A stretch of DNA of 35,621 nucleotides from a virus. A program made the position numbers and the translations under genes. The notes beneath the pieces are model-generated. The model was not told the DNA's origin. It saw only the letters and a list, made by a program, of their open reading frames with translations, and did no database searches. Positions 414 through 34,644 of the stretch are shown in pieces. The stretch lies in the IMG/VR virus record IMGVR_UViG_3300008107_000171, positions 1 to 35,621 of that record, one strand, 5' to 3'. Each line of letters begins with the position of its first letter. Within the stretch, counting starts at the first letter, position 1.

Positions 414-422
414 TGCTATAAT
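414..422 (+). promoter_or_regulatory. Extended -10 promoter (TGcTATAAT) after the terminator
   Basis: TGCTATAAT at 414–422 is a perfect extended -10 element directly after the terminator. No TTGACA-like -35 is visible at the right distance, and extended -10 promoters can work without one. The predicted start near 429 leaves a leader of about 24 nt carrying AAGGAGG at 438–444 before the ATG at 453. It would re-start transcription for the tail assembly operon. Confidence 0.6.
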
Positions 423-14435: not shown

Positions 14436-14878
14436 TGGCTCAAAAGAATTTATCAAATAAAAAATTCTTTATCCCATTGTCAAAACTTCCATATCCAAAT
14501 ATAGATGGTAAGCATAGGGTAAGATTTAGAATAACTACCCAAGATCGTAATGAGATATCTGAGTGGTCTCCAATATTTGTTATGGATAGTCCAAACCAAC
14601 AATCTTCGGCATCAGTAGTATATCAATATCAAAAAATAGGTCAAACAGCAGCACTCTCATGGCTACCAAACTCTCAATATAAAGAATATGATGTTTTTAT
14701 TTCATATGATGGTGCACCTCTTTCTTATTTTACAAGAACAGTAAATAGTGGTATAAATATAAATATTCCAACTGAAGCAACAACCCTTAGGGTATGGGTA
14801 CAACTTCCTAGTTACCCAACCCCACCAACAACTTCTAATTTATTTAAATTGTTTGATACAGGCACAATAACCTTATAA
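14435..14878 (+). CDS. Small tail protein, fibronectin-III-like
   Basis: A 147-residue beta-rich protein. The pattern of strands, with VRFRITTQDRNEISEWSPIF and later AALSWLPNSQYKEYDVFISY then TTLRVWVQLP, is what one sees in immunoglobulin-like or fibronectin type III domains of phage tails. It follows the fibre gene with a TAATG overlap and ends just before an extended -10 element. Likely a decoration or accessory component of the tail tip. Function beyond that is not visible. Confidence 0.55.
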   Translation: MAQKNLSNKKFFIPLSKLPYPNIDGKHRVRFRITTQDRNEISEWSPIFVMDSPNQQSSASVVYQYQKIGQTAALSWLPNSQYKEYDVFISYDGAPLSYFTRTVNSGININIPTEATTLRVWVQLPSYPTPPTTSNLFKLFDTGTITL

Positions 14879-14879
14879 G

Positions 14880-14888
14880 TGATATAAT
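14880..14888 (+). promoter_or_regulatory. Extended -10 promoter (TGaTATAAT), near-leaderless
   Basis: TGATATAAT ends 9 nt before the ATG at 14898, so a start about 7 nt downstream would leave a leader of roughly 3 nt. The bases GGAGAG (14889–14894) could also serve as a ribosome binding site for mRNA coming from upstream, though they are only 3 nt from the ATG. No -35 element is visible. Confidence 0.5.
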
Positions 14889-14897
14889 GGAGAGATT

Positions 14898-15326
14898 ATG
14901 GGACTAATATCATTACCTGAACGTGGACAGCCACTAGACGTAAACTACATATACGAAATGGCTAATCAAATTTATGAATTACAAAAGGCTACTACCAACA
15001 CAAGCACAAACATATCTAGAATCAACGGAGTAGGCACAACTAACAACAGGGTGATCTTTTACGCTAACTCAGTTTCAATGACTTATCCAAACGTAATTTC
15101 TGGTGAATCTAGAGACTTTGAAGCAACACTACAAGGCTTTACGACCCCGCCACTGGTTACAGCAACAGTTTTAAATCCAGCAGGTGCTACATCGTCAACT
15201 GCAGGAGACAACGTAAGTTTAGTTTTGACATTGGTTTCAAACGACACCGTAAAAGGCAAGATAAGATTTGGAACGCCAGGTCCAATAAGTTTACTTATAA
15301 ATATTATGGCAATCGGAATAGCCTAG
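14898..15326 (+). CDS. Small tail protein (fibre tip or chaperone), unknown family
   Basis: A 142-residue protein starting MGLISLPERGQPLDVNYIYE. The first 45 residues look helical (YIYEMANQIYELQKATT) and could trimerise; the remainder is beta-rich, Thr/Ser/Val-rich and ends in a hydrophobic strand (ISLLINIMAIGIA). This arrangement, a short coiled-coil followed by a small beta domain, is common in fibre tips. It is the last gene of the tail cluster and has its own extended -10 element. The role is inferred from position and composition. Confidence 0.5.
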   Translation: MGLISLPERGQPLDVNYIYEMANQIYELQKATTNTSTNISRINGVGTTNNRVIFYANSVSMTYPNVISGESRDFEATLQGFTTPPLVTATVLNPAGATSSTAGDNVSLVLTLVSNDTVKGKIRFGTPGPISLLINIMAIGIA

Positions 15327-15330
15327 AATC

Positions 15331-15339
15331 TGGTATAAT
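15331..15339 (+). promoter_or_regulatory. Extended -10 promoter (TGgTATAAT), leaderless arrangement
   Basis: TGGTATAAT ends 8 nt before the ATG at 15348, so transcription would begin within about 2 nt of the start codon. No Shine–Dalgarno sequence precedes that ATG. The site lies exactly between the tail cluster and the replication cluster. Confidence 0.6.
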
Positions 15340-15347
15340 TTTTCACT

Positions 15348-15557
15348 ATGAATATAAAAGAAGCATTGACATGCAGCAAGTGTTCTGCTAAGATGTTAGT
15401 AGATAGAGTATTTTTAAATCACGATCATCTTGAACTTTACTGTTTGAGATGTGGCAAAAGAGAGATGTATCATAACCCACAAAAATTTGGTGAAAGAGTA
15501 AGATGGATAATGAGCCTGGAAACGAGAAGAGCGAGAATTCTCGGCAATCCGTTATAA
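15348..15557 (+). CDS. Small zinc-ribbon protein
   Basis: A 69-residue protein with C9-x2-C12 and C32-x2-C35, spaced as in a zinc ribbon (CSKC and CLRC). The C-terminal half is basic (KFGERVRWIMSLETRRAR). Such proteins commonly bind DNA, RNA polymerase or a partner protein. There is no ribosome binding site and a -10 box sits just upstream, so it is probably translated from a leaderless mRNA. It is the first gene of the non-structural region, which would suit a regulator, but no target can be read from the sequence. Confidence 0.65.
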   Translation: MNIKEALTCSKCSAKMLVDRVFLNHDHLELYCLRCGKREMYHNPQKFGERVRWIMSLETRRARILGNPL

Positions 15558-16048
15558 AGCCTAGTACTACTATATTTTTTATAAGCAACGAACCAGTAAG
15601 ATTAATTCATAAAAATAAGGCAAGTAATATTTGTAGTTTATATAATTATATTCACGATAAAGAGCAAACAATGCTTTACTCTGATTTTAAAAAGCATAGA
15701 AAAAAGGCTTATTCTATTTCAACAACTATGAAAATATTTAAAAGATCTAGAAATCAGTTTGGTAGATTAATAAATAGTAAAACAATCCCAGCCCCAGTTG
15801 GATTGTCTAAGGGTGGTGTAAGAGCCTGGCAGGTTATGTCTTACTATTCAGAAGATGATTTATTTAAAATAAGAGAGGCAATGTCTCACATACATATTGG
15901 AAGACCAAGAAGAGATGGTAGGGTCACTCCAAGTAAAAATCTTCTTTCCGAGAAGGACTTGCGTTCTTTGTTGGGAAGTGGTATTATGTTATATACAAAG
16001 ACAGAGGATGGGCGGTTCATCCCTGTATGGCAAGAGGAAACGTGGTGA
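15503..16048 (+). CDS. MerR-like helix-turn-helix DNA-binding protein
   Basis: A 181-residue basic protein. Residues about 70–125 read like a winged helix: a first helix and turn around YSISTTMKIFKRSRNQFGRL, a segment KTIPAPVGLSKGGVRAW and then YYSEDDLFKIREAM, which matches the MerR layout with its (R)xW/Y and helix-after-wing pattern. Beyond this lies a basic segment (IGRPRRDGR). The start at 15503 overlaps the zinc-ribbon gene by 55 nt; a later ATG at 15671 would still keep the DNA-binding part. It could be a transcription regulator or a replication-origin-binding protein, being close to helicase and primase. Confidence 0.6.
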   Translation: MDNEPGNEKSENSRQSVIKPSTTIFFISNEPVRLIHKNKASNICSLYNYIHDKEQTMLYSDFKKHRKKAYSISTTMKIFKRSRNQFGRLINSKTIPAPVGLSKGGVRAWQVMSYYSEDDLFKIREAMSHIHIGRPRRDGRVTPSKNLLSEKDLRSLLGSGIMLYTKTEDGRFIPVWQEETW

Positions 16049-16050
16049 TT

Positions 16051-16251
16051 ATGTCAGATCAAACAAAAGTATCTGTAACATTGGGGTACACATTAAATCT
16101 AGGTAACTTTCAAAGTTTAAGAGTAGATATTGGATGCACAGATTTTATTCGTCAAGAAGAAACTTTGGATTCAGCAATGGATCGTGTATATAAATTTGTT
16201 GAAGAACAAGTTATTGCAAAAGTAGATGAGGCTAAGAAAGAACTAGAGTAG
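16051..16251 (+). CDS. Small conserved phage protein, unknown
   Basis: A 66-residue protein, MSDQTKVSVTLGYTLNLGNF and so on, with two strands and then a helix (DSAMDRVYKFVEEQVIAKV). I place the start at 16051, two bases after the upstream stop, with AGAGGAA at 16033–16039; an in-frame ATG at 16027 would add eight residues that overlap the previous gene. I have seen the pattern GYTLNLGNF-x2-LRVDIG in other actinophage small proteins but know no function. It is followed by a TAGTG overlap with the next gene. Confidence 0.6.
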   Translation: MSDQTKVSVTLGYTLNLGNFQSLRVDIGCTDFIRQEETLDSAMDRVYKFVEEQVIAKVDEAKKELE

Positions 16252-16598
16252 TGCCAAAGCCTAAAAAAGAATTAAAAGATATTTTGTCAGAAAAGCCAGT
16301 ATGGGATATTGATGAGATATTTAAACTATTTGACAAAAGACTAAAAGAAAAAAGTGTATACGATCAAAAGTATAACAAGGGCAAGGCTAAGTTTTTTGTC
16401 AAAGAGTTGTATGAGTCATATGGAGTGGAAGAGTCTAAAGAACTTGTTGAATATTATTTCAAAATATATGATTCTCCAAACTGGGAACATTTTGTAAAGC
16501 GTTCTGATTCATTTTATAAGGCTATGCAAATGAAAAAAGAAGATGATAGAATAAGAGAGTTGCTTAGAAATCAAGCAAAAGATTGGTTAGGAAAATAG
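16251..16598 (+). CDS. Helical protein before the helicase; possible helicase loader
   Basis: A 115-residue, highly charged, all-helical protein starting at a GTG overlapping the previous stop (TAGTG) and ending in another TAGTG overlap with the DnaB-like helicase. No motif is recognised. Phage helicase loaders are often small helical proteins encoded next to the helicase, so that is one possibility, based only on the neighbour and the tight coupling. Confidence 0.5.
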   Translation: MPKPKKELKDILSEKPVWDIDEIFKLFDKRLKEKSVYDQKYNKGKAKFFVKELYESYGVEESKELVEYYFKIYDSPNWEHFVKRSDSFYKAMQMKKEDDRIRELLRNQAKDWLGK

Positions 16599-17824
16599 TG
16601 TCTGCAGAATTAGAAGCCAAGGTACTTGCGGCTGTATTAAAAGATAAGCAGATTCATGTTCTACTGCAAGCCAATCCAGATCAACTATTTAGAACACATA
16701 AAGATGTTTGGAATTTTATAAGAGATTATTCTGAGCAAAATTCTGTTGTTCCAACAATTAGTTTAGTAACTGAAAAATTTAAAGACCTAACTCCAGTCGG
16801 TGAGGTTGGCAATACAAAGTATCATCTTGAAGAATTAAGGACGTCATATTTACACGACAGTCTAAGCAATGTTCTTATGTCTAGTGCCAATCAGTTGCAA
16901 AACAATCAACCAACTGAAGCACTAAACACTTTAATATCAAAAACATCTGAGTTAAAAAAAATAACTGCAAATATTAGAGATATTGATGCAACAGATATTG
17001 AAGACGCACTAGCACATTTTAAACATATTAAGGAGTTAAATGCAAAGGGTAATTATGGTATTAAGACAGGTCTTGCGGGGTTTGATAACTATCTTCCAGC
17101 AGGTATTACTCCTGGCCAGTTTGGCATTCTTCTTGCTTATCCTGCTATTGGTAAGTCTTGGCTCGCACTCTTTATGGCTGCTCAAGCATGGAAGAATGGA
17201 AGAAAGCCGCTAGTTATATCTCTTGAAATGACCGAAACAGAAGTTAGAAATCGTATTTATACAATTATCGGTCAAGGATTCTTTTCACATAGAAAATTAA
17301 GTTCTGGAGAAATAGATGAAGAGTCTTTTAATCTTTGGGGACATCAGCATTTGGATAATATGCCACCTCTGCACATTGTTTCAAATGATGGGGTAGGAGA
17401 ATTATCTACTTCTGTATTAAGAGGAAAGATAGATCAATATGCACCAGACATTGTATTTGTAGATTATATTCAATTAATGCAATCAAACATTCCTAGCGAT
17501 AATGAAGTAGTAAAGATTAAAAGTATTTCAAGAGAATTAAAAGTTTTGGCAATATCAGAACAAGTTCCTATAGTTGCTATTGCTTCTGCAACACCAGATG
17601 ATGCTACAGATATGCAAAGCGTTCCAACACTAGGTCAAGTCGCATGGTCTAAACAATTAGCCTACGATGCTGATTGGGTTCTAGCACTTGGTCGTGCACA
17701 GGGATCAACTATTCTAGAATGTGCGTTTAGAAAAAATAGACATGGTTTTTGTGGAGACTTTATGATAGATGTTGACTTCGACTCTGGAAGATTTTTGTAT
17801 AAAGACTTTGAGGATAAATCATAA
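16598..17824 (+). CDS. dnaB: DnaB-type replicative helicase
   Basis: A 408-residue hexameric-helicase relative that would unwind the phage replication fork. The N-terminal ~120 residues are helical, like the DnaB N-domain (AKVLAAVLKDKQIHVLLQ). The RecA-like motor follows: GIKTGLAGFDNYLPAGITPGQ, Walker A AYPAIGKS at 180–187 (first Gly replaced by Ala, allowed by the [AG]xxxxGK[ST] consensus), LVISLEMTETEVRNRI, and Walker B with IVFVDYIQLM around Asp289. I chose the GTG at 16598, which overlaps the upstream stop as TAGTG, over a TTG at 16583 that adds only five residues. It is the first of a helicase, primase, SSB, polymerase series. Confidence 0.9.
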   Translation: MSAELEAKVLAAVLKDKQIHVLLQANPDQLFRTHKDVWNFIRDYSEQNSVVPTISLVTEKFKDLTPVGEVGNTKYHLEELRTSYLHDSLSNVLMSSANQLQNNQPTEALNTLISKTSELKKITANIRDIDATDIEDALAHFKHIKELNAKGNYGIKTGLAGFDNYLPAGITPGQFGILLAYPAIGKSWLALFMAAQAWKNGRKPLVISLEMTETEVRNRIYTIIGQGFFSHRKLSSGEIDEESFNLWGHQHLDNMPPLHIVSNDGVGELSTSVLRGKIDQYAPDIVFVDYIQLMQSNIPSDNEVVKIKSISRELKVLAISEQVPIVAIASATPDDATDMQSVPTLGQVAWSKQLAYDADWVLALGRAQGSTILECAFRKNRHGFCGDFMIDVDFDSGRFLYKDFEDKS

Positions 17825-17832
17825 TTTAGATA

Positions 17833-17838
17833 TATAAT
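17833..17838 (+). promoter_or_regulatory. TATAAT -10 box in leaderless arrangement
   Basis: TATAAT ends 6 nt before the ATG at 17845, in the 20-nt gap after the helicase stop. A start at the usual distance falls on the A of the ATG. There is no TG extension and no clear -35. The absence of any Shine–Dalgarno sequence before that ATG supports a leaderless mRNA. Confidence 0.45.
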
Positions 17839-17844
17839 TATCGT

Positions 17845-18156
17845 ATGTATAGCCACAAGCCTATTAAAAGGTTTGGTCTAGAAGGCGAAATATACGATGA
17901 TTCACATATCGTAAGACTTAAAGACCAATATGTATTTATGGTTGTGTCCGTGATGAGAAATCATGGATATGTCCCAAGATACGATATTGACCCAGACTTT
18001 ACAGTTGGGTATAATGGTAAGACATTTGAGTTTCAGTTATCAGTATACGGAGTGTATGTTGGAAAAGAGAGAGCAAAGTGGATACTAGGGGTAGACAAAA
18101 ACAAACCAATACAATCACATACTACTCAGAAGAACAAGTCAAGCGAAGTCTCATAG
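17845..18156 (+). CDS. Unknown protein between helicase and primase
   Basis: A 103-residue protein, MYSHKPIKRFGLEGEIYDDSH and so on, with alternating strands and helices in its first 85 residues and a polar tail that overlaps the primase reading frame by 79 nt. I recognise no domain. The ATG has no ribosome binding site but follows a TATAAT box by 6 nt. Its place inside the replisome genes suggests an accessory replication role. The 3' part may be under double constraint because the primase is encoded in the -1 frame there. Confidence 0.55.
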   Translation: MYSHKPIKRFGLEGEIYDDSHIVRLKDQYVFMVVSVMRNHGYVPRYDIDPDFTVGYNGKTFEFQLSVYGVYVGKERAKWILGVDKNKPIQSHTTQKNKSSEVS

Positions 18157-19034
18157 CATCTGGCGTAGATATTCAATACGAGTTAGACAATGATCTAATG
18201 ATCTTTTGTCCATTTCATAATAATTACAGATCTCCAGCAGGCGAAGTATCAAAAGAAACAGGATTATTCTGGTGTTTCTCATGTCAAGAATCTAAAACTT
18301 TAGAAGAAGTAATAATGCAAATATCTAAGAAGTCATACTTTGAAGCAATAAGAGTTATAGATTCTAATAAAGATGATAGAAACTTATTAGAAAGATTGTC
18401 TAGCACATTAGAAAAGAAAAATGAATTAAAACAATTTGACGAAGAGTTAATAGAAAAATTATACAACAATGTATCTGGAAACCTCAGAGCCCTAAAGTAT
18501 TTTGATGATAGAGGTATAACTAGAGATAGTATAGATAAGTATAGATTAGGGTATTCAACGACACAGGACATGGTTACAATACCAGTTCACTCTCCAGACG
18601 GATACTACCTAGGATTTGTGGGTAGATCAATAGAAGGAAAAAGATTTAAGAATTCTACAGATCTACCGAAGAGTAAAACTTTGTTTAATCTTTGGCGTAA
18701 TAAACGAGTAGATAAGATATTTGTAGTAGAATCATCTTTTGATGCAATCATGATAGAGCAAGCAGGTGGGCATGCTGTTGCCACCCTAGGAGCAACTATA
18801 TCAAAAGAACAAAGAAAACTTTTAAAGCAATATTTTAATCAGGTAATTGCTTTAGGAGATAATGATGAGGCTGGCAAGAATATGTCAAACAAATTAATGA
18901 CCGATCTTGGACCAGGAAAATGTATTATTGCAAACCTACCGACAAAGGTTAAGGACGTTTCAGATCTTTCAAAGCAAGATTTGAAAAACTTTATAAAGGG
19001 ATTTGACAATATAGTAGTCACAATGCTACAATAG
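18078..19034 (+). CDS. dnaG: DnaG-type DNA primase
   Basis: A 318-residue primase that makes RNA primers for the phage fork. The zinc-binding CHC2 site is C44-x2-H47-x18-C66-x2-C69 (CPFH and CFSC). The TOPRIM catalytic region has E218 in VVESSFDAI and D261/D263 in LGDNDEAG. It is shorter than cellular DnaG (about 600 residues) and lacks a helicase-interaction domain, as in many phage primases. The start is the GTG at 18078, since no other standard start lies before the conserved region; a purine-rich GGAAAAGAGAGAG precedes it. The 3' end carries the promoter for the next gene. Confidence 0.88.
   Translation: MDTRGRQKQTNTITYYSEEQVKRSLIASGVDIQYELDNDLMIFCPFHNNYRSPAGEVSKETGLFWCFSCQESKTLEEVIMQISKKSYFEAIRVIDSNKDDRNLLERLSSTLEKKNELKQFDEELIEKLYNNVSGNLRALKYFDDRGITRDSIDKYRLGYSTTQDMVTIPVHSPDGYYLGFVGRSIEGKRFKNSTDLPKSKTLFNLWRNKRVDKIFVVESSFDAIMIEQAGGHAVATLGATISKEQRKLLKQYFNQVIALGDNDEAGKNMSNKLMTDLGPGKCIIANLPTKVKDVSDLSKQDLKNFIKGFDNIVVTMLQ
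19003..19032 (+). promoter_or_regulatory. Strong sigma70-type promoter for the ssDNA-binding protein
   Basis: TTGACA (19003–19008), an 18-nt spacer and TACAAT (19027–19032) with TGc directly before it. Both boxes lie in the last codons of the primase gene. The predicted start near 19039 gives a leader of about 36 nt with AAGGAG before the ATG at 19075. Confidence 0.7.
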
Positions 19035-19074
19035 AACAGGCTCATTTACAGAGCAAATATTAAGGAGAAAACAA

Positions 19075-19725
19075 ATGTCAGTAATCAAAGGATTAAAAAA
19101 CATCGAAGCAGTACTTGATAAGGCAAAAGTAGAAAACAGTGGTGCAAAAGTCAACTGGCTCAAACTAGATGACGGAGAAAGTGTACAAATTAGATTCGTA
19201 AGTGAACTAGATGCAGACTCACCAAACTATGATGAAAAGCGTGGAGTTGCAATCGTAATTAGCGAACACACAAACCCAGAAGATTATAAAAGAAAAGCAG
19301 CCTGCACAGCAGATAGTCAAGGCAGATGCTTTGGTTGTGAAATGTTTCGTAAAGAACCAAAGAGTGGATGGAGAGCACGTTTACGCTTCTATTGCAACGT
19401 ATTAGTTGACAATGGAACTGAACAGCCAAAGGTTGCTGTATGGAGCATGGGAGTAAGTAAGACTGCTACATTTAGCACAATTCGTGAATTTGCAGCAGAT
19501 TCCCAAAGTATCAGCAATATGATTTGGAAATTAAAACGTAACGGCAAAGGCACAGAAACAAACTATGTGCTACTTCCAGGCAAGCAAGATTCAGAACCAT
19601 TTAACTGGGGATCAAACGAAGCGTTTAACTTAGAAAAGGTTGTTCGTGACCTTCCTTATGCTGAACAAGAATCATTCTATCTAGGATTCAGCAATCCAAC
19701 CACAACTGCAGCAGCAGAGTGGTAA
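19075..19725 (+). CDS. gp32-like single-stranded DNA-binding protein
   Basis: A 216-residue protein resembling the core of T4 gp32-type ssDNA-binding proteins. An N-terminal segment LDKAKVENSGAKVNWLKLDD leads into strands (SVQIRFVSEL), then a likely zinc site H65, C77, C85, C88 (AACTADSQGRCFGCEMF), then OB-fold strands (RARLRFYCNVLV, KVAVWSMG). It coats ssDNA at the fork and during recombination. It has a strong promoter, AAGGAG as ribosome binding site, and CGT-rich arginine codons, all signs of high expression. It lacks the acidic C-terminal tail expected of gp32. A second, bacterial-type SSB is encoded at 33381. Confidence 0.75.
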   Translation: MSVIKGLKNIEAVLDKAKVENSGAKVNWLKLDDGESVQIRFVSELDADSPNYDEKRGVAIVISEHTNPEDYKRKAACTADSQGRCFGCEMFRKEPKSGWRARLRFYCNVLVDNGTEQPKVAVWSMGVSKTATFSTIREFAADSQSISNMIWKLKRNGKGTETNYVLLPGKQDSEPFNWGSNEAFNLEKVVRDLPYAEQESFYLGFSNPTTTAAAEW

Positions 19726-19752
19726 GAGATAATTAATCAGAAAGGCTATGGC

Positions 19753-22700
19753 TTGAATTACGTTCCATTACACGTTCATACACACTATTCTTTAATGGAT
19801 GGTGTTGCAACTCCAGAAGAGTATTGCAAACGTGCAAAACAAAACGGCATGCCTGCTATAGCCATTACTGATCATGGTGCACTATCTGGACATCGTCCAA
19901 TGTATCGTGCAGCAAAAGCCGAGGGTATAAAACCAATTCTTGGTATAGAAGGTTATATTACTCATGATAGATTTGATAGAAGAGACAAAGCAGAAAGAAA
20001 TGGTCCTTTAGATTTAACATATAATCATATTGTTATTCTTGCAAAAAACCAACAAGGACTAGAAAACTTAAATAGATTAAATGAAATAGCATGGACAGAA
20101 GGTTTTTACAAAAAGCCTAGAATAGATTTTGAAGTATTAGAAAAGTATAAAGATGGACTTATTGTCTTGTCAGCATGTATGTCAGGATTAATTGCCAAAG
20201 CCTTAGAGTTTAAAGAATACGCAGAAGCAAAAAGGCTACTAACTTGGTTTAAAAATACCTTTAATGATGATTTTTATGTAGAGGTAATGCCTCATAATTC
20301 TAAGGAACTTAATAAAGAACTATTAGAGTTTGCAGATTCACTGGACATAAAATCTGTTGTTACTCCAGATTGTCACCACTCTACTGTAGATCAAAAGGTA
20401 GTTCAAGAAATTATGCTACTGCTTAATACCCATGCAAAACTACAAAAGGATTCCTCATACGATAAGTCTGCAAAGATAGATGACATAATGAAACGTCTTG
20501 ACTATTTGTATGGTGCAGATAGATCTATGTCTTTTAGATCTTTTGATATTCACTTGCTTTCATATGAAGAGATGAAGCAGGCTATGAATATGCAGGGTAT
20601 ACAAAGAGAAGATATCTATACTAACTCATTAGAAATAGCAGATAAAGTAGAAGATTATGATATCAAATCTGAACTAGACTTACTTCCTACTAAAGTTGAT
20701 GATCCACAAAAAACATTAGAAGACTTGGTTACTAAAGGATTAATAGACAGAGAACTAAATCATTTGCCTGAATATGTTAATAGAGCATTAGAAGAACTAG
20801 AGATTATTAAGCAAAAGAATTTTGCACCATATTTTTTGATTGTAAGCAATATGCTTAACTGGGCTAAAGAACAAGGAATTCTAGTTGGTCCAGGACGTGG
20901 ATCAGCAGCAGGATCGTTAGTTTGCTATACATTAGGCATTACAGACGTTGATCCAATTGAATATGGACTTTTGTTTTTTAGATTTGTTAACCCAGAAAGA
21001 AACGACTTTCCAGATATCGACTCCGATATTGCAGACTCAAGGCGTGATGAAGTAAAGACGTATTTAGAAAAAGAATATGAAAACGTTGCATCTATTGCTA
21101 CATTCTTAGAGTTTAAAGGAAAAGGAATAGTAAGAGATGTGTCTAGAGCGTTTAACGTTCCACTGGCTGACGTAAATAAAGTATTAAAAAATGTAGATGA
21201 CTGGGATGATTTTACAACAAGTAAGACAGCACAATGGTTTAGATTGAAGTATCCAGAAGTAGTAAAGTATGGAGAACAAATGCGTGGTCGAATCAGAGGA
21301 ACAGGTATTCACGCTGCTGGAGTTGTTACAGCAAAAGAACCTATTTTTAAATATGCTCCAATGGAAACCAGAGTTGCACCAGGAACCAAAGATAGGATTC
21401 CAGTAGTTGCAGTAGACATGGACGAAGCAGCAAACATAGGGCTAATTAAGTTAGACGTTCTTGGACTAAAAACTTTAACTGTAATTGATGAAACAATTAG
21501 AACTATAAAAGAAAGACACAAGATAGATGTAGTTTTAAAAGACATTCCTCTAGATGATAAAAGTGTTTATGAAATGCTTTCAGATGGAAAAACAAAAGGT
21601 GTATTTCAGTGTGAAGCAACTCCTTATACTAACCTACTTGTTAAGATGGGGGTATCTAATCTAAATGAATTGGCTGCTTCCAATGCTCTTGTAAGACCAG
21701 GTGCTATGAACACTATTGGTAAGTCATATCTGTCTAGAAAACATGGTAAGACTATGATTGAATATATTCATCCAATTATGCAAGAATTTACAAAAGATAC
21801 TTATGGATGTATTTTATATCAAGAACAAGTAATGCAAGCCTGCGTTCATCTTGGTGGAATGAGTATGTCAGAGGCAGATAAAGTTAGAAAGATTATTGGT
21901 AAAAAGAAAGATGCAAAAGAATTTGATCAGTTTAAAGACAGATTTATTATAGGTGCTCAAAAACATATTACACCTTTTGCTGCAGAAGGTTTGTGGCAAG
22001 ACTTTGAAGCACATGCAGGGTACTCATTTAATAAGTCTCATGCTGTTGCATACTCGATGCTTTCATACTGGACAGCATGGTTAAAATATTACTATCCTAT
22101 TGAATTTATGTATTGCTTATTAAAGAACGAACAAGACAAAGATGCAAGAACAGAATATTTAATTGAAGCAAAACGTATGGGAATTTCTGTTAAACTTCCA
22201 CACGTTAATGAATCTGACTCAGACTTTTCAATTGAAGGCAAAGGTATACGTGTAGGTCTATCTTCAATTAAATGGATATCAGATGGAGTTTCTTCAAAAA
22301 TTATGGCATATAGACCATACAACTCTTACGCAGAGTTCTCAGCATTAGCCTCTAAAAAGGGCAGTGGGATCAATATTAGAGCCGTTCAAGCACTTAATGC
22401 AGTTGGAGCACTAACATTTCCAGATAACCCTAGAAAAGAAACTGTAGTTAAAGAAAACCTTTATGAATATTTAAATCTACCAGAATTTACCACAAGTGTT
22501 CCGCCTCACTATTATGCATACATTGACAACATAGAAGACTATGATGAACAGGGTGCGTTTATTTTAATGGGTGTTGTAAAAAATATTAAACGTGGAAAAG
22601 GTTGGTCACGTGTTGAAATCATGGATGCAACAGGAATGGTGGGGGCATTTGATGATGAAGAAACTAAAATAGAACAAGGTAAGACATACATATTTTTAAT

Positions 22701-24035: not shown

Positions 24036-24183
24036 CTATACTGTATACCCTGGCAAATTTGTTTGTCATACGTGTAAAGAAATAGTTCCAAAAGCAAGAA
24101 TGTATGCAGAAAAAGGAGATCTTACTTGGATGTGTACTAAAAAACATATATCTAAAGTGACATTTCCACAGAAAGGATACTGA
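24013..24183 (+). CDS. Small zinc-finger protein, TTG start
   Basis: A 56-residue gene occupying the 148-nt gap between recA and the next gene and overlapping recA's end by 23 nt. TTG at 24013 is the only standard start after the in-frame stop at 24004. The protein has C18-x2-C21, then C41-x3-H45 in LTWMCTKKH, a treble-clef-like zinc site, with the pattern GKFVCHTCKE-IVPKARMY that I associate with small proteins of related phages. The stop overlaps the next start as TGATG. Function unknown; its place suggests a partner of RecA or of the adjoining nuclease. Confidence 0.75.
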   Translation: MNQQSTPNYTVYPGKFVCHTCKEIVPKARMYAEKGDLTWMCTKKHISKVTFPQKGY

Positions 24184-24473
24184 TGAGCGAACGTGGAGAA
24201 CTAAAGCGTATTGGTGCAAAACAACATCGTAATTCAGGTAGGGGACCAGTCAAGGCTGACGGATCATTGGATGACTTCGTAGTAGATGTCAAAGAATATT
24301 CTAAATCCTATTCCGTCAGTCAAGACTCTTGGGCTAAAATAGTGTCTGACACAATGAAGGTAGATAGAAAAAAGAACCCTGCTTTAATGGTAGTGCTTGG
24401 ATCTGAGCATAAAAAGGTAAGACTTGCTATAATTGAGTGGGAAGTATTTGAACAGTTAAGAGAAAAAGAGTAA
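24183..24473 (+). CDS. Hjc-like PD-(D/E)XK nuclease, putative Holliday junction resolvase
   Basis: A 96-residue basic protein. The segment RNSGRGPVKADGSLDDFVVD followed by VKEY places D26 and D35-x-K37 as the metal-binding core of a minimal PD-(D/E)XK fold, like archaeal Hjc and phage resolvase families. A later SVSQDSWAKIVSDTMK helix and strand PALMVVLG complete the expected order. It would cut branched DNA made by RecA and replication. A RuvC-like enzyme is encoded 1.4 kb downstream, so this may be a resolvase or a nicking nuclease with another job. Confidence 0.6.
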   Translation: MSERGELKRIGAKQHRNSGRGPVKADGSLDDFVVDVKEYSKSYSVSQDSWAKIVSDTMKVDRKKNPALMVVLGSEHKKVRLAIIEWEVFEQLREKE

Positions 24474-24784
24474 TGGAAAATACAGTAGAGTTATTAAATA
24501 AGTTAACATCTTTTAATGAGATGTCTGAATACATGCAAGATGAAGAGTTTACGAAGACTCTTACTATTGTTGCTAAACTGATTGCAAACCCAGATGTGCC
24601 TGCAGCAAAAGCAACACTATTAATAACTCAACTACAAGCACAATCAGCAAAGTTTGCTATGCTAGCAGCATGGTACTCTCATGTTAAAAAAGATGATAGA
24701 TCTAAAAAGAATATGTACTATGCAATAAGAGAAGCAACCGATAAACTAGTCGATGCCCTTAAATACAGCGTGAGGAATTTCTAA
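24473..24784 (+). CDS. Small helical protein in the recombination module
   Basis: A 103-residue all-helical protein, acidic at the N-terminus and basic at the C-terminus (VDALKYSVRNF), coupled to both neighbours through TAATG. It sits between two PD-(D/E)XK nucleases and could be an adaptor or inhibitor for one of them. I do not recognise a family. Confidence 0.55.
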   Translation: MENTVELLNKLTSFNEMSEYMQDEEFTKTLTIVAKLIANPDVPAAKATLLITQLQAQSAKFAMLAAWYSHVKKDDRSKKNMYYAIREATDKLVDALKYSVRNF

Positions 24785-25560
24785 TGGCTAAAACATTATT
24801 ACAAAAAATAATTAAAAAGGTAGACACAGGAACTGTAGATTTAAAAAAGATTACAGATGCAATCAACAATGGATATATGTTAAATGCTCTAGAAAAACCA
24901 TCTTTTCAAAAGAAAAGATCTTTTGCTCCATCTAAATTAGTATGGAACGAAGGAACTTGTCCTAGATATTGGTATTTAGCGTTTGAAGGAAATGAAACTG
25001 AAATTAAAAATGATGGTCCAGGAATAGCAAACATGCTATCTGGAATAGATGGCCACAAAAGAATTGGCTTAGCGTTAGAAAAAACTGGCATTGTAAAGTG
25101 GTTTGAAAATGAAGTAAGTTATAATGATCCACCAATCTTTGGTTACTGCGATGGACTTTTTAGTATAGACGAGCAAGATGTTTTAATAGAAATTAAAACT
25201 ACAAATGAAAGAGCATTTGAGTATAGAAAGCAAACCAACTCTGCAAGCGATAGTAATCGTATGCAGTTATTAATTTATATGAAAATTTTAAATTATTCCA
25301 TTGGTGCATTAGTTTATGAAAACAAAAATACTCATGAGATATTAACAATTCCAGTTGTTCCAACTCAAGAAGATGTTGATGAAGTAAATAAAATGTTTGA
25401 TTGGATGCGTAAAGTTAAAAAAGCATTTGACGATAAACAATTGCCAGAAAGAGTTTCTAGACAAGGAACTAAGATGTGTGCAGCATGTCCTGTGGAAAAG
25501 GTTTGCGACTCTAGAGAAAAGGGTGTAATCAAAATCGAAAAGAGGAAAGATTTTGAATGA
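24784..25560 (+). CDS. Cas4/RecB-like Fe–S exonuclease
   Basis: A 258-residue PD-(D/E)XK exonuclease. The catalytic residues are D123 (GYCDG), E136-x-K138 (IEIKTT) and Q161-x3-Y165 (QLLIY). Four cysteines, C59 near the N-terminus and C232, C235, C241 near the C-terminus, have the arrangement of the [4Fe–4S] cluster of Cas4 and AddB. It probably resects DNA ends to make ssDNA for RecA and the ssDNA-binding protein. No CRISPR array or other cas gene is in the window, so a role in adaptation is not suggested. The stop overlaps the next ATG as ATGA. Confidence 0.8.
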   Translation: MAKTLLQKIIKKVDTGTVDLKKITDAINNGYMLNALEKPSFQKKRSFAPSKLVWNEGTCPRYWYLAFEGNETEIKNDGPGIANMLSGIDGHKRIGLALEKTGIVKWFENEVSYNDPPIFGYCDGLFSIDEQDVLIEIKTTNERAFEYRKQTNSASDSNRMQLLIYMKILNYSIGALVYENKNTHEILTIPVVPTQEDVDEVNKMFDWMRKVKKAFDDKQLPERVSRQGTKMCAACPVEKVCDSREKGVIKIEKRKDFE

Positions 25561-25853
25561 CACTAAAACACTGTCAGTGGTGTGATAACTCTTTTGAAAC
25601 AAAAAGCAAAAACCAAATTTACTGCAGCCCTGAGTGCAGATCTTTAGCAACAAAAGAAAATATTGCTAGAAGATATAAACAAAACAAGGCAAAAGAAAGA
25701 ATTGGAAAAGATAGAAGATGTGCTGGTGATTGTGGACAAATTCTTAGCATATATAATGAAAATGCTTTTTGTGACAACTGCCTTGTTAACAACAAAAAGG
25801 TTGACAAAACCTTGAAAGAGATAAAGGAATTTTTTGATTATGAGCAAAACTAA
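25557..25853 (+). CDS. Double zinc-finger protein
   Basis: A 98-residue protein with two four-cysteine sites. The first is C6-x2-C9 and C23-x3-C27 (HCQWCDNSF then IYCSPEC), a pattern found in small HNH-like or DNA-binding zinc domains; the second is C55-x3-C59 and C72-x2-C75 (RRCAGDCGQ then FCDNC). A basic helix (NIARRYKQNKAKERIGK) lies between them and could bind DNA. No HNH catalytic His is evident. Located between Cas4-like and RuvC-like genes. Confidence 0.65.
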   Translation: MTLKHCQWCDNSFETKSKNQIYCSPECRSLATKENIARRYKQNKAKERIGKDRRCAGDCGQILSIYNENAFCDNCLVNNKKVDKTLKEIKEFFDYEQN

Positions 25854-26451
25854 ATTAAGGTACATAGGTAACCCTACGACAATTCTTGCTATTGATGCAT
25901 CAACTAACTCAATGGCCTTTTCTTTATTTTCAGAAAGAAAATTAATTAAATATGGAAAAGTTAATTTTCACGGAAACCACGTATACGAAAGAACTGGGGA
26001 TGCTACTAAAAAAATATCAGCATTTCTTAAAGACTATAAAATTGATGCAATTGTAATAGAGTCTGCAATATATACTAATTCTCAAAATACAGCAATCACA
26101 CTTTCTCTTGTTCAAGGAGCAATATTGGGGGCAAGTCAAATGTATAATAAAGCACCAATTGTTTCATGTTCACCAGTGTCATGGCAATCATGGATTGGAA
26201 ATGGAAGACTTAAAAAAGAAGAAAAGCAGGCAATCAAAGATCTATACGGAGAAGAAAAATCTTATTCATTTTACAAAACCAAAGAAAGAGAAATGAGAAA
26301 AGCAAGAACTATAAATAAAGTTAATATACAGTTTGATTTAAATGTTGATGATGATGATGTGGCTGACTCTATAGCGATAGGCTGGTATGCTTCAGAAAAT
26401 TGGCATAAACTTGTTGATCAACCACATAATCTTGACAAGGGCAAGGGGTAA
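25840..26451 (+). CDS. ruvC: RuvC-like Holliday junction resolvase
   Basis: A 203-residue RNase H-fold nuclease. D19 in ILAIDASTNS, E74 in AIVIESAIY and the DDDDVADS cluster (D170–D173, D176) make the expected catalytic quartet. The middle has APIVSCSPVSWQSWIGNGR. I chose the ATG at 25840, with AAAGGA upstream, over a TTG two codons earlier; it overlaps the zinc-finger gene by 14 nt. It probably resolves four-way junctions before packaging. The gene's last codons contain a strong promoter. Confidence 0.85.
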   Translation: MSKTKLRYIGNPTTILAIDASTNSMAFSLFSERKLIKYGKVNFHGNHVYERTGDATKKISAFLKDYKIDAIVIESAIYTNSQNTAITLSLVQGAILGASQMYNKAPIVSCSPVSWQSWIGNGRLKKEEKQAIKDLYGEEKSYSFYKTKEREMRKARTINKVNIQFDLNVDDDDVADSIAIGWYASENWHKLVDQPHNLDKGKG

Positions 26452-26460
26452 TGATAAAAT
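26432..26460 (+). promoter_or_regulatory. Sigma70-type promoter overlapping the HTH gene start
   Basis: TTGACA (26432–26437), a 17-nt spacer and TAAAAT (26455–26460) with TGa in front. It is close to consensus in every element. The -10 box runs into the ATG (26459) of the small HTH gene, so transcripts would begin near 26467, inside that gene, and serve the conserved unknown, the DUF1599-like gene and the terminases. Confidence 0.65.
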
Positions 26461-26611
26461 GAAGTTATACACAAATGAGGCATGGCTTAGAAAGAGAGTT
26501 TTAATTGATAAGAAAAGTCCAGAAGACATTGCAAAAGAATGTTCATGCAGTGTCGAAACCATTTATGTTTATATGGCAAAGTTTAAACTTAAAAAGTTAA
26601 AGAGAAAATAA
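26459..26611 (+). CDS. Small helix-turn-helix protein
   Basis: A 50-residue protein with a clear HTH pattern: SPEDIAKECSCSVETIYVYM covers the two helices and the turn, and a basic tail KLKKLKRK follows. AAGGGG ten bases upstream is a plausible ribosome binding site. Its ATG lies in the -10 box of a strong promoter, so it must be translated from upstream readthrough mRNA, and it could bind that promoter. Homeodomain-like small proteins of this type often act as repressors or as terminase-associated factors. The stop overlaps the next ATG as TAATG. Confidence 0.65.
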   Translation: MKLYTNEAWLRKRVLIDKKSPEDIAKECSCSVETIYVYMAKFKLKKLKRK

Positions 26612-27303
26612 TGTTTAAAAAAGACAAATCATTAATAGAAATTTGGACAGCAATAGAAGGACTTGCTGGAATTGAAGAATGCAAGCCTCAACCAGCATCT
26701 AAGTTTATTCCAGAGTGGTGGAAGAACGCTCCTTATGTAAATGATCCAGGGGTTTTAAGAACAGTCAAAGTTTGTCCATCTTTTCCAGATATGTTTTCTC
26801 AAGGATACATCATCCCAGCATGGTGCGATATGATTTTAAATGGTGGAGACAATCCAGGTTTCACACTTCCTTCAGAACAATTTAAATTAAGTTTTCATAC
26901 TCACAAACAATTTTTAGACTATGTTCCAAAGCATTATAGAGATACCGTAGACGTAATAATCAAAGCACATATGCCTTGGAGAATTAAAACTCCTAAAGGA
27001 TATTCTGTATATCAAATGCCATTATTTTTTCATTACAACGAAGACTATTCTATAGTGCCAGGAATAATTAATACAGATAGCCATCATATTGTTAATCCAC
27101 AAATTGTTTTGCATACAAAAAAACCAAAAGTAGTTATTAAAAGGGGAGACCCACTTGTATGGTATATTCCGTTTAAAAGAGAAAAATTTAATTTAGAGGT
27201 TAGAGAAGAAACAGAAGATGATAGATATATTGATGCTGTTCACCACATGAATATATTTTCAAAATTTACAGATGGGTATAAGAAAGGAATGGGAAATGGC
27301 TGA
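26611..27303 (+). CDS. Conserved phage protein, unknown function
   Basis: A 230-residue soluble protein with a distinctive pattern: ASKFIPEWWKNAPY, VKVCPSFPDMFSQGYIIPAWCD, and later IKAHMPWRIKTPKGYSVYQM. I believe this pattern is widespread in marine and freshwater phages (possibly the DUF6065 group), where the fold has been likened to small-molecule or cupin-like proteins, but I am not sure of either. The many His and Trp residues would be compatible with a metal or ligand site. It lies between an HTH gene and the packaging genes. It ends over the start of the next gene by 8 nt. Confidence 0.55.
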   Translation: MFKKDKSLIEIWTAIEGLAGIEECKPQPASKFIPEWWKNAPYVNDPGVLRTVKVCPSFPDMFSQGYIIPAWCDMILNGGDNPGFTLPSEQFKLSFHTHKQFLDYVPKHYRDTVDVIIKAHMPWRIKTPKGYSVYQMPLFFHYNEDYSIVPGIINTDSHHIVNPQIVLHTKKPKVVIKRGDPLVWYIPFKREKFNLEVREETEDDRYIDAVHHMNIFSKFTDGYKKGMGNG

Positions 27304-27631
27304 GTATCCTAGGGTAGATCTCGATAAGATCCTTGAAGATAGAATGAAGTTTATTCGTGATATATCTACTCAAGCACCTGCGGGTAGAAAGATTCTAGAT
27401 GAATGCCTGGATATAGCAGAACTACTGATTAAAAAGAATCAATCTTATGGTAGTTCATATAGTCATCCAATCAACATATTTAGTAAATCTACCCCAAAAG
27501 AACAAATATTTATTCGTATTGATGATAAACTTAATAGAATACATAAAGGTAAAGAGTATGCTTCTGAAGACACCATACTTGACCTTATTGGATACCTTGT
27601 ATTATTAAGGACATTAGATGAGCGACAATGA
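27296..27631 (+). CDS. DUF1599-like (nucleotide-modification-associated) protein
   Basis: A 111-residue helical protein. The segment KKNQSYGSSYSHPINIFSK, then RIDDKLNRIHKGKEYASED and LDLIGYLVLL, resembles the DUF1599 family, which is found near phage nucleotide-metabolism and DNA-modification genes. The catalytic function of that family is not established. I use the ATG at 27296, with AAGGAA at the right distance, over an ATG eight codons upstream. If the family match holds, it hints at modified nucleotides or a MazG-like pyrophosphatase fold. No modifying enzyme was found in the window. Confidence 0.5.
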   Translation: MAEYPRVDLDKILEDRMKFIRDISTQAPAGRKILDECLDIAELLIKKNQSYGSSYSHPINIFSKSTPKEQIFIRIDDKLNRIHKGKEYASEDTILDLIGYLVLLRTLDERQ

Positions 27632-28139
27632 TTTAGTAAAACACCTTGACCTAGTCAACAGTGTTGCCACAGAATATCTTAAAGGCCTAGATGCTTCAGA
27701 GATATCTAGACAATTAGATATCCCAAGACCAAAGGTGATGACTCTTTTAAATGACTGGAGAGCAATGGCTTCTAATAATCAAGCCATACATGCTCGTGCA
27801 AAGGAAGCCCTTGCTGGAGCAGATCAACACTATTCTTCTTTAATTAAGAAAGCATATGAAGTTATTGATGTTGCAGATATAAATACAAATCTTGGTGCAA
27901 AAACACAGGCTATCAAACTGATAGCAGATATTGAAAGCAAAAGACTTGAGATGTTACAGAAAGCAGGATTGTTAGACAATAAAGAAATAGCAGAACAAAT
28001 TATTGAAATGGAAAGAAAGCAAGATGTTTTAATGAAAATATTAAAAGAGGTTGCTTCTAAACATCCAGAAGTTCGTGAAGAAATTATGCGTAGACTTTCT
28101 GAAATTCAAACCGAGGTGGTTGTAATTGACAACGATTGA
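27618..28139 (+). CDS. terS: Terminase small subunit
   Basis: A 173-residue protein: an N-terminal HTH (EYLKGLDASEISRQLDIPRP) that would recognise the packaging site, then long helices for oligomerisation (KKAYEVIDVADINTNLG, QAIKLIADIESKRLEMLQK) and a C-terminal tail. It directly precedes and overlaps the large terminase by 14 nt. The family is variable, so the call rests on the HTH plus helices plus neighbour. It would form the ring that loads the motor onto concatemers. Confidence 0.75.
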   Translation: MSDNDLVKHLDLVNSVATEYLKGLDASEISRQLDIPRPKVMTLLNDWRAMASNNQAIHARAKEALAGADQHYSSLIKKAYEVIDVADINTNLGAKTQAIKLIADIESKRLEMLQKAGLLDNKEIAEQIIEMERKQDVLMKILKEVASKHPEVREEIMRRLSEIQTEVVVIDND

Positions 28140-29919
28140 TTTTAGTGATTTTATTGAAGCACTAGATGAAAGCCCTTTTGAAGAAATGCCAGTCGATGTT
28201 AAAACTTTTGTAACTGGAAAAGATTATTTAAATCAACCAGAGTTATCTGAATATCAATATACACTTGTAGAATGCATGAGTCAGATTTATAAAAAAGAAG
28301 ATGTTGAAAGGTGGTTAGGAAAAGAAGATGGAAATGAACATTACAAAAAGTATACCAAGTCTGAAGTTATTCTTATGTGTGGAAAGGGTAGTGGTAAAGA
28401 CCACACTTCTACCATTGGCTGTGCTTATATTGTCTATAAACTTCTTTGCCTCAAAGATCCATCAAGGTATTTTGGGAAACCATCGAACGATGCGATAGAT
28501 CTTATTAACGTTGCAGTAAACGCACAGCAAGCAAAGAACGTATTCTTTAAAGGTTTTAAATCTAAAATAGAAGGCTCCCCATGGTTTGCTGGTAAATATT
28601 CTGATCCAAAAGTTGATAGTATTGAATTTAGTAAAGCAATCACTGTGTACTCAGGACATTCAGAACGTGAGTCAGCAGAAGGCTTAAACCTGATGCTGGC
28701 AGTTCTTGATGAAATATCTGGATTTGCTATGGAAACTGCTGGAGGAAACGATCAAGGAAAAACAGCAGATAATTTATACAAAGCATTTAGAGGATCTGTA
28801 GATTCTCGTTTTCCAGATTTTGGCAAAGTAATTCTTCTTTCTTTTCCAAGGTACAAAGGAGACTTTATATCACAAAGATATGAAGATGTGGTAGCAGAAA
28901 AAGAAACAGGAATTAGAAGTCATGAGTTTATTATAAATCCAGCATTATCTGAAGAAGATCCAACTAATAAGTTTGTTATTGAATGGGAAGAAGACAATAT
29001 AATTAGTTATAAATACCCTGGAGTATTTGCATTACGTAGACCAACTTGGGAAATGAACCCAACCAGAACTATTGAAGATTTTAAAATTGCATTTTTTACA
29101 GATCAATCAGATGCTCTTATGCGTTTTGCTTGTATGCCAACAGTGTCATCAGATGCATTTTTTAAAGATAGGTCAAAAGTTGAAAAGGCACTATCAAGAC
29201 ACAACCCAATTGATAACAGTAGAAGATTTGACTTAAACTTCAAACCCAAAGAAGACGTAGAATATTTTGTTCATGCTGACTTGGCACAAAAACATGACAA
29301 GTGTGCAGTATCAATTGCACATGTTGAAAAATGGGTAAGTGTTCAGTCCTTTAATAATTATGAGCAAGTAATGCCGTTAGTGGTTGTAGACACTATTGCT
29401 TGGTGGGAACCAAAGCGTGAGGGTCCAGTAGATTTAAGCGAAGTTAAAAATTGGATTATAGATTTAAGAAGATCTGGATTTAACTTAGGCTTAGTTACTT
29501 TTGATAGATGGCAATCTTTTGATATACAAAACGAATTAAAACAAGTAGGAATTAAAACAGAAACCTTGTCAGTTGCTAAAAAACACTATGAAGATTTGGC
29601 TATGTTAATTTATGAAGAAAGGGTTGAGGCACCTCATATAGACATCCTTCTTGAAGAACTTTTAGAATTAAGAATAATGAACAATAATAGAGTTGATCAT
29701 CCTAGAAAAAAGTCTAAAGACTTGGCTGACGCAATGTGTGGATCAGTTTATAACGCAATTAGCAGATCACAAAAAGATAGAGTAAAAGAAGTAGACATAC
29801 ACACTTGGTCTAGGGGTGGGGTAGACTCAGACTCCGTAGAAGACGATGATTTTGGTTTTGAAAAAGAAAAGATTAGAGGAAAGATCGGTGGATGGGACGG
29901 AGGCTTCAGATTAATATGA
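28126..29919 (+). CDS. terL: Terminase large subunit
   Basis: The 597-residue packaging motor and nuclease. The ATPase has GKGSGKD at 86–92 as Walker A, with Asp where Ser/Thr is usual; I believe this variant is typical of one terminase branch. Walker B is LMLAVLDEIS with D195/E196. The RNase H-like nuclease has D385 (HADLAQKHDK), D460 (TFDRWQ) and D535 (DLADAM). The start is a TTG with GAGGTGG six bases before; the codon above it in this frame is a stop, so nothing upstream is possible. It pumps DNA into the prohead through the portal, which is not in this window. Confidence 0.93.
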   Translation: MTTIDFSDFIEALDESPFEEMPVDVKTFVTGKDYLNQPELSEYQYTLVECMSQIYKKEDVERWLGKEDGNEHYKKYTKSEVILMCGKGSGKDHTSTIGCAYIVYKLLCLKDPSRYFGKPSNDAIDLINVAVNAQQAKNVFFKGFKSKIEGSPWFAGKYSDPKVDSIEFSKAITVYSGHSERESAEGLNLMLAVLDEISGFAMETAGGNDQGKTADNLYKAFRGSVDSRFPDFGKVILLSFPRYKGDFISQRYEDVVAEKETGIRSHEFIINPALSEEDPTNKFVIEWEEDNIISYKYPGVFALRRPTWEMNPTRTIEDFKIAFFTDQSDALMRFACMPTVSSDAFFKDRSKVEKALSRHNPIDNSRRFDLNFKPKEDVEYFVHADLAQKHDKCAVSIAHVEKWVSVQSFNNYEQVMPLVVVDTIAWWEPKREGPVDLSEVKNWIIDLRRSGFNLGLVTFDRWQSFDIQNELKQVGIKTETLSVAKKHYEDLAMLIYEERVEAPHIDILLEELLELRIMNNNRVDHPRKKSKDLADAMCGSVYNAISRSQKDRVKEVDIHTWSRGGVDSDSVEDDDFGFEKEKIRGKIGGWDGGFRLI

Positions 29920-30281
29920 GCCCAGACGAATATACGCCAGAAGAAGAAGAAAGAGTAATGGCCTTTATAAACCTAATGGTTGAAATTGGTGCTCTAGAAA
30001 TTGCGGGGTATGATAAAGTAACTGACTCTTTTACATACTGTATAACTCCTAAAATGAAAGAATTAATCCCAGAGTTTTTTGAAGAGCATATGAAATTCAT
30101 AAATCAAATAGCCTTTGATCTGTGGAATCAGGGGTATGTAGAAATAATGTTTGAAGAAGATGGTCCTCTAGTAATGCTAAAAGAAGATATAGACTATCCA
30201 TCTATACTTGATACTTTGAAAGAGGAAGAAAGAATGTTTTTAGAAAATATGATCAATCACCACAATGGTGATATAATTTAG
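29916..30281 (+). CDS. Small acidic protein after the terminase, unknown
   Basis: A 121-residue very acidic protein (MSPDEYTPEEEERVMAFINL) with alternating helices and strands. I place the start at the ATG 29916, which overlaps the terminase stop as ATGA and has GGAGG twelve bases upstream; the ATG at 29892 would add eight residues. The end carries an extended -10 box for the next gene. Winged-helix-like spacing is possible (FTYCITPKMKELIPEF), but no family was recognised. Confidence 0.5.
   Translation: MSPDEYTPEEEERVMAFINLMVEIGALEIAGYDKVTDSFTYCITPKMKELIPEFFEEHMKFINQIAFDLWNQGYVEIMFEEDGPLVMLKEDIDYPSILDTLKEEERMFLENMINHHNGDII
30269..30277 (+). promoter_or_regulatory. Extended -10 promoter (TGaTATAAT), leaderless arrangement
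   Basis: TGATATAAT ends 6 nt before the ATG at 30284, placing the predicted start on the A of that ATG. The box lies in the last codons of the preceding gene. There is no Shine–Dalgarno sequence between it and the ATG. No -35 element is visible. Confidence 0.6.
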
Positions 30282-30283
30282 AC

Positions 30284-31360
30284 ATGCCTTACGATATCAA
30301 AAGAAACTATGGTGGTTGCAAGGGTTATGCAGTAGTCGGCCCAGGAGGCACTAAAGGCTGTCACCCATCACGTAAAAAAGCCGTAGAACAACAAAGAGCG
30401 TTATATGCTGCTGAAGCACAATCTAAAAAATCACATGATGGTGCTATCACAAATGAAGATACTCCAAATAAAAAACCTCATTCAATGGAAGAGTGCACTG
30501 ATCCAAAAAACTGTCCAGACCATATGGAAGATGACATGGATAAAAAATCACCATGTTGGGATGGATACGTTCAACGTGGCATGAAGCCAGGTAAGAATGG
30601 AAGAATGGTTCCTAATTGTGTACCAGTTAAAAAATCAGAAGAATTAGAAGAATGCTGTCCAGATTTAATTAAAGCAGAACACGAAATGCAAGAAGGAATG
30701 TTTGTGATGGGTCCATACTCTAAGGGAATGGCACATGGAAAAATTGAACATGTGATGAGAGATGGAGGTCTTGCAATTGGATCAGAATTTGAAATTATGT
30801 CAACACCAGAAGATCCAGCAATATTAATAAGAATATATGAAGAGTCAAATGGTAGTTGGCAAGGAACTGATTTATTTACAGCATTTAAATCATCAGACGC
30901 AATGCTAATTGGAACTGAAGAAGATATGATGGATCATTCAATGGACAAGGCAGATTTAGAAAAAAGAAGTTTAGAAGATTTAGATTTAAGACCAACAGAA
31001 TCTATGGCATCAAATGCTCGTAGAGGATTAGAGTTAAGAAGAAAGTTTGGTAGAGGTGGAACAGCAGTTGGTGTTGCTCGTGCAAGAGACTTGGCAAATA
31101 GAAAAGAATTAAGTCCTGGAACCGTTTTAAGAATGTACTCCTTCTTTTCACGTCACGAAGTAGATAAGCAAGGAAAAGATTGGAATAACTCAGAAAGACC
31201 ATCAAATGGAAAAATTGCTTGGCTTCTTTGGGGTGGCGACTCTGGATATGCTTGGGCCAAGTCTAAGCGAAACGCAATTATGAACGTAAGATCTAAAAAA
31301 TCAAATGATGCAGTGTGGGAATCATCTGCATTTGCTTTTAAAAAAACCCTTGACAACTAA
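30284..31360 (+). CDS. Mosaic head-related (XkdF-like) protein
   Basis: A 358-residue protein built of short modules joined by polar linkers. Residues 1–45 (YDIKRNYGGCKGYAVV, GCHPSRKKAVEQQRALYAAE) and PCWDGYVQRGMKPGKNGRMV are short Cys-containing modules I associate with phage portal or protease polyproteins. FVMGPYSKGMAHGKIEHVMRD and PEDPAILIRIYEE resemble an XkdF-like module. The C-terminal part with SPGTVLRMYSFFSRHEVDK and GKIAWLLWGGDSGYAW is a module common in phage head-maturation proteins. Linkers carry KKS four times (QSKKSHD, DKKSPC, VKKSEE, RSKKSND). I expect a role in head assembly or DNA ejection, but no catalytic residue set was recognised. Probably expressed from a leaderless mRNA. 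Confidence 0.55.
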   Translation: MPYDIKRNYGGCKGYAVVGPGGTKGCHPSRKKAVEQQRALYAAEAQSKKSHDGAITNEDTPNKKPHSMEECTDPKNCPDHMEDDMDKKSPCWDGYVQRGMKPGKNGRMVPNCVPVKKSEELEECCPDLIKAEHEMQEGMFVMGPYSKGMAHGKIEHVMRDGGLAIGSEFEIMSTPEDPAILIRIYEESNGSWQGTDLFTAFKSSDAMLIGTEEDMMDHSMDKADLEKRSLEDLDLRPTESMASNARRGLELRRKFGRGGTAVGVARARDLANRKELSPGTVLRMYSFFSRHEVDKQGKDWNNSERPSNGKIAWLLWGGDSGYAWAKSKRNAIMNVRSKKSNDAVWESSAFAFKKTLDN

Positions 31361-31378
31361 CCCTAACTAGTGTAAAAT
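31350..31378 (+). promoter_or_regulatory. Sigma70-type promoter for the small-gene cluster
   Basis: TTGACA (31350–31355), a 17-nt spacer and TAAAAT (31373–31378). The -35 box overlaps the last codons of the upstream gene. A start near 31385 gives a short leader with ACGGAG (31391–31396) before the ATGs at 31402 and 31406. Confidence 0.75.
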
Positions 31379-34638: not shown

Positions 34639-34644
34639 TATAAT
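34639..34644 (+). promoter_or_regulatory. TATAAT -10 box before the secreted protein gene
   Basis: TATAAT in the 56-nt gap after the endolysin gene, with no TG extension or -35 at the right distance. A start near 34651 gives a leader of about 19 nt before the GTG at 34670. AT-rich sequence makes chance matches likely. Confidence 0.35.

Follow-up and report, generated by a model that had tools for sequence, protein, structure and literature searches.

Conserved −10 boxes set 6–9 nt before start codons suggest leaderless gene expression in freshwater actinophages

How are genes expressed when their start codons lie only a few nucleotides behind a bacterial −10 box? Four genes of an uncultured phage raise this question. 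The window, that is, the whole stretch of 35,621 nt analyzed here (IMG/VR record IMGVR_UViG_3300008107_000171), is a linear viral contig of 35.6 kb with 34% GC, and its + strand holds almost all genes. The original prediction was that four boxes end 9, 8, 6, and 6 nt before ATG codons and serve leaderless expression in the actinobacterial style; the boxes and their genes lie on the + strand, and all box coordinates and gaps (here, the nucleotides between the end of the −10 box and the start codon) were confirmed. An extended −10 box (TGATATAAT, 14880..14888) ends 9 nt before the ATG of a 142-aa gene (14898..15326) that follows the tail genes, has no PHROG or Pfam match, and has a predicted leader of ~3 nt. 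Another (TGGTATAAT, 15331..15339) ends 8 nt before a 69-aa gene (15348..15557; phrog_12850, function unknown). A TATAAT preceded by ATA, not TGn (17833..17838), ends 6 nt before a 103-aa gene (17845..18156; phrog_17515, function unknown) between the genes for a DnaB-like helicase (16583-17824, profile matches) and a primase-like protein. Lastly, a second TGATATAAT box (30269..30277), which reaches into the 3' end of the ORF before it, ends 6 nt before a 358-aa gene (30284..31360; phrog_2859, function unknown) located after the terminase large subunit gene (terL, 28126-29919, profile matches). The last three genes are predicted to be leaderless. No Shine-Dalgarno (SD) core was found at 15348, 17845, or 30284, while gene 14898 has a GGAG core (14889-14892) 5 nt ahead of the ATG (3 nt for GGAGAG, as originally described). 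Each of the four ATGs has an in-frame stop 9–15 nt upstream and is the earliest possible start; since no earlier start is possible after that stop, the four start assignments are forced.

Judged by its gene content, the window phage is an actinophage, since its TerL shares 57% identity with the TerL of Stanwilliamsviridae Streptomyces phages and its gene order (tail, DnaB-like helicase, small gene, primase, DnaE, RecA, and further on TerL) is that of Samisti12 and EGole. It is Stanwilliamsviridae-like in this sense of homologous TerL and common gene order. A WhiB-like regulator (32828-33112, Pfam E 6e-12) also points to an actinobacterial host, and we place the host at the level of Actinobacteria. 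A TerL relative was found on a phage contig (SHUQ01000020.1, hereafter L162) of a 'Nanopelagicales' MAG, but the other contigs of this bin have 56–59% GC, and the presence of the phage contig among them may be a binning error, hence a host assignment from this match was rejected. The primase-like gene (18078-19034) shares 79 nt with the small gene 17845-18156; in Samisti12, gp77 and gp78 overlap as well. Unlike gene 17845, gp77 starts within the helicase stop codon and has no −10 box; the GC content of Samisti12 is 49%.

Of the 44 window starts listed, a −10-like box at gap 5–9 is confined to these four, and all four boxes are perfect TATAAT. At this gap, no other window start has a TAnnnT matching 4/6 positions or more, and the set of four is complete. 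Over 43 starts, TATAAT at gap 6–9 was expected 0.12 times and observed four times (Poisson 7e-6), and TGnTATAAT was expected 0.009 times and observed three times (Poisson 1e-7). By contrast, the genome-wide count against a shuffled control that had been proposed as a check gave no significant excess: TGnTATAAT occurs six times in the window versus a shuffle mean of 3.74 (at least six in 17/100 shuffles), and TATAAT 46 times versus 53.8 in shuffles. As positions are enriched but raw counts are not, the signal is positional, and raw counts were left out of the evidence. No classical −35/−10 pair using any of the four boxes was listed, promoter-like sites at 14300-18300 numbered 16 versus 16.7 in shuffles, and no terminator was found on the + strand upstream of the boxes. 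The same type of box in a leadered mode (TGCTATAAT, 414..422, + strand; gap 30, with AGGAGG before ATG 453) provides an internal positive control; its orthologs have a gap of 14–30 nt together with an SD core in 12/12 distinct sequences. Elsewhere in the window, a TTGACA-17-TAAAAT promoter-like site (31350-31378, 11/12 matches) lies at the 3' end of gene 30284 and precedes an SD-led gene at 31402, and a TATAAT at 34639 is followed by an incomplete ORF that runs to the contig end (35621) and encodes a secreted-looking protein with Pro/Thr-rich repeats.

To place the four boxes among relatives, we assembled 160 loci around TerL and helicase orthologs and ~0.75 Mb of larger related contigs, 2.88 Mb altogether; overlap between the two sources was removed by de-duplicating upstream sequences, and L162 and L186, which represent all or part of the MAG phage contig, are included except where excluded. 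A simple caller that ignores upstream sequence yielded 2578 distinct gene starts. Exact TATAAT occurred at gap 6 in 91 of them, at gap 7 in 13, at gap 8 in 6, and at gap 9 in 32; gaps 10–13 together held only 3, and gaps 14–18 held 64. The distribution is thus bimodal, with a main peak at 6, a lesser peak at 9, a near-empty zone at 10–13, and a second hump at 14–18. The gap-6 starts (88 ATG, 3 GTG) span 29 gene families, and counts inside one family are not independent. SD cores accompany 42% of all starts and 78% of those at gap 14–18; at gap 9 the figure is 56%, mostly from the 14898 family, and 23% by family. At gap 6 it is 2%, leaving 98% without, which is partly geometric, as 6 nt give no room for the core. 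The empty 10–13 zone is therefore the stronger evidence: leaders of that length would be too long for leaderless initiation and too short for an SD. SD absence places 15348, 17845, and 30284 with the leaderless set and leaves 14898 ambiguous.

The box is over-represented at this fixed distance of ~6–9 nt. In the related viral contigs, the density of TGnTATAAT is 0.009 per kb inside genes versus 7.8 per kb at gap 6–9, so the outcome named as refuting the original prediction, an element equally frequent within genes and at starts, misses by ~820-fold. Permuted, reversed, and reverse-complement motifs (TAATAT, ATTATA, and TTAATA among those checked) gave no peak. In non-actinophage controls of 29–40% GC (K, SPO1, HTVC008M, and T4), TGnTATAAT fell at gap 6–9 in 2/49 cases, compared with 103/315 in the relatives (Fisher 6e-6). 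Gene starts of one actinobacterial MAG showed a TAnnnT peak at gap 6–7 (51 matches/371 starts; ~2 per position elsewhere). Counts of TGNTATAATN{6,9}ATG and TAnnnTN6ATG in whole actinobacterial genomes were set aside in favour of these MAG gene starts, since the pattern is not gene-tied and the full consensus is rare there.

All four boxes are near-invariant in orthologs down to 31–52% protein identity while their flanks drift, with a per-column conservation of 96–100% in the box versus 62–65% upstream. Orthologs of 17845 have TATAAT at gap 5–7 in 58/58 distinct sequences, none with an SD core; TGn precedes it in 30/58, although not in the window copy. For 30284, a box precedes 24 ortholog starts: in 23 the gap is 6 and an SD core is absent, and in the remaining one the gap is 20 and an SD core is present; a further 13 aligned rows without a box resemble mis-set starts or partial matches. 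Among 34 distinct orthologs of 15348, 23 carry the box at gap 6–9, none of them with an SD core, and seven at gap 25–27, four of these with an SD core.

The 14898 family behaves differently. Its box is present in 52/53 distinct upstream sequences, with TGn in every case, but the gap is 8–9 in 27, 10 in one, and 15–17 in 24. Two forms recur, TATAAT-GGAGATAAT-ATG with gap 9 and TATAAT-TAACTA-GGAGATAAA-ATG with gap 15, which differ by ~6 nt between the box and GGAG. The GGAG is found in 24/24 sequences at gap 15 versus 20/27 at gap 8–9 (Fisher 0.011, kinship ignored). At gap 15, it would sit at the 5' end of a predicted 9-nt leader; at gap 8–9, it would lie upstream of the predicted transcription start. 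As most gap-8–9 orthologs keep it at a usable spacing, gene 14898 may also be read via its SD from read-through RNA. The gene may have a 3-nt leader. Leaderless expression of 14898 is likely, though not exclusive. The family amounts to a natural experiment on the switch between leaderless and SD initiation.

What kind of promoter would these boxes be? A family-weighted logo shows T (57%), G (69%), and A or G before TATAAT, and nothing at −35. This is the arrangement of a sigma-70 extended −10 promoter, in which TGn directly precedes TATAAT and a −35 element is dispensable, even if 17845 itself lacks TGn. The simplest reader, we infer, is the host housekeeping polymerase. A phage-encoded sigma factor was considered as a reader and rejected, as a search of 20 related records, most of them fragments in which a domain could be missed, gave no sigma-70 region 2 domain.

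Gene arrangement sets the box starts apart as well. They lie a median of 20 nt after the preceding stop codon, and 6% abut or overlap it, compared with 67% of starts without a box. Translationally coupled runs are therefore interrupted where a box occurs; in the window, such breaks fall after the tail genes (14898, 15348), after the helicase (17845), and after the terL region (30284). The claim that the boxes mark module boundaries holds in so far as they interrupt chains of overlapping genes, but the label is too strong, because 17845, flanked by helicase and primase, belongs to the replication cluster. Box-start families elsewhere include a head maturation protease, tail-fibre-like proteins, an SNase-like nuclease, and an FtsZ homologue. 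The last (L168:9229-10161, on a related phage contig; Tubulin/FtsZ E 6e-46, FtsZ_C E 1e-29) has a GTG start 6 nt after TATAAT. Another box-start gene (L071:4749-5417) weakly matches a ferrochelatase PHROG (E 6e-10); heme auxotrophy has been reported for freshwater Nanopelagicales (PMC10202952).

Collectively, the observed box positions, their conservation, the spacing rule, the lack of SD cores, and the gene-order context very probably reflect −10-only host-sigma promoters that give leaderless or near-leaderless mRNAs, since the boxes lie so close to the ATGs. The four boxes would act as extended −10 promoters that lack a conserved −35 and are used by the host housekeeping RNA polymerase (sigma-70/SigA type). 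Transcription would begin at the A of the ATG at gap 6 (17845, 30284) and ~2–3 nt upstream of it at gap 8–9 (15348, 14898), and the 5'-terminal AUG would be recognized directly and not through SD pairing. Such promoters would reset expression at points within long series of genes that overlap and are translationally coupled. We hold leaderless expression to be highly probable for 17845 and 30284, and only slightly less so for 15348. As first proposed, leaderless actinobacterial-style expression is the best reading, with WhiB, TerL and gene order, and the MAG TAnnnT peak as its actinobacterial context.

The boxes might instead be promoters mainly for downstream genes, with the first ATG translated from read-through RNA by re-initiation or an SD and no leaderless initiation at all. 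The GGAG that most 14898 orthologs keep at a 5-nt spacing would fit, as would preceding stop codons only ~20 nt away. Yet an SD core is absent from all but one of the four genes, and 94% of box starts stand clear of the preceding gene. Nor would this reading explain the exact 6-nt gap over 29 families or the empty 10–13 zone, and we regard it as unlikely. Alternatively, TATAAT could be an A/U-rich element of a longer mRNA, such as an S1 or standby-site enhancer, rather than a promoter. The phage is AT-rich, and A/U-rich leaders help SD-less starts. However, a TG is conserved one base upstream of the hexamer, which is the signature of a DNA extended −10, the same element also occurs 25–30 nt before SD genes, and neither the rearranged hexamers TAATAT, ATTATA, and TTAATA nor phages of other hosts at the same GC show the effect; an mRNA element is very improbable. 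Total motif counts no higher than in shuffles would suit a mere coincidence in an AT-rich genome, but positional probabilities of 1e-7 to 7e-6 speak against it and conservation across dozens of orthologs refutes it, which makes chance hardly credible. Going beyond the leaderless-promoter reading, the genes could form a dedicated set that is preferentially translated during one phase of infection, for example by 70S initiation when SD initiation is limited, and which genes enter or leave via small box–ATG indels, as the 9-nt and 15-nt forms of the 14898 family suggest; we consider this unlikely.

The arrangement is a known style in Actinobacteria and not a new mechanism, and the window is a new, well-supported instance of it. 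In Actinobacteria, TANNNT ~12 bp before the start marks leaderless genes, which make up >20% of genes (Zheng et al., 2011, PMC3160421). In M. tuberculosis, where many transcripts are leaderless (defined by a 5' end within 5 nt of the start codon), promoters have a TANNNT −10 and no −35 motif, and only 7% of these TANNNT promoters carry TGN (Cortes et al., 2013, PMC3898074). Like those genes, the window genes lack an SD and a conserved −35, the first T of their −10 falls ~12 bp upstream of the start, and their orthologs can be leaderless in one genome and SD-led in another. Unlike them, they are viral, at ~35% GC, and their boxes are unusually strong, being full TATAAT/TATACT and mostly TGn-extended. 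Leaderless SigA-like promoters have been predicted for cluster O mycobacteriophages such as Corndog (PMC4351075), also actinobacterial phages, in which transcription is predicted to begin on the first base of the start codon, at operon heads; that lineage is different, and few promoters were predicted there, whereas here ortholog conservation and a spacing rule extend over many families. A literature search of partial coverage found no earlier description of leaderless promoters for this phage group.

Gene finders applied to metagenomic phages could make use of the spacing rule (6–9 nt without an SD, at least 14 nt with an SD, and almost nothing between). Start codons, promoters, and operon breaks of a large group of freshwater actinophages, so far uncultured, can be read from sequence alone.
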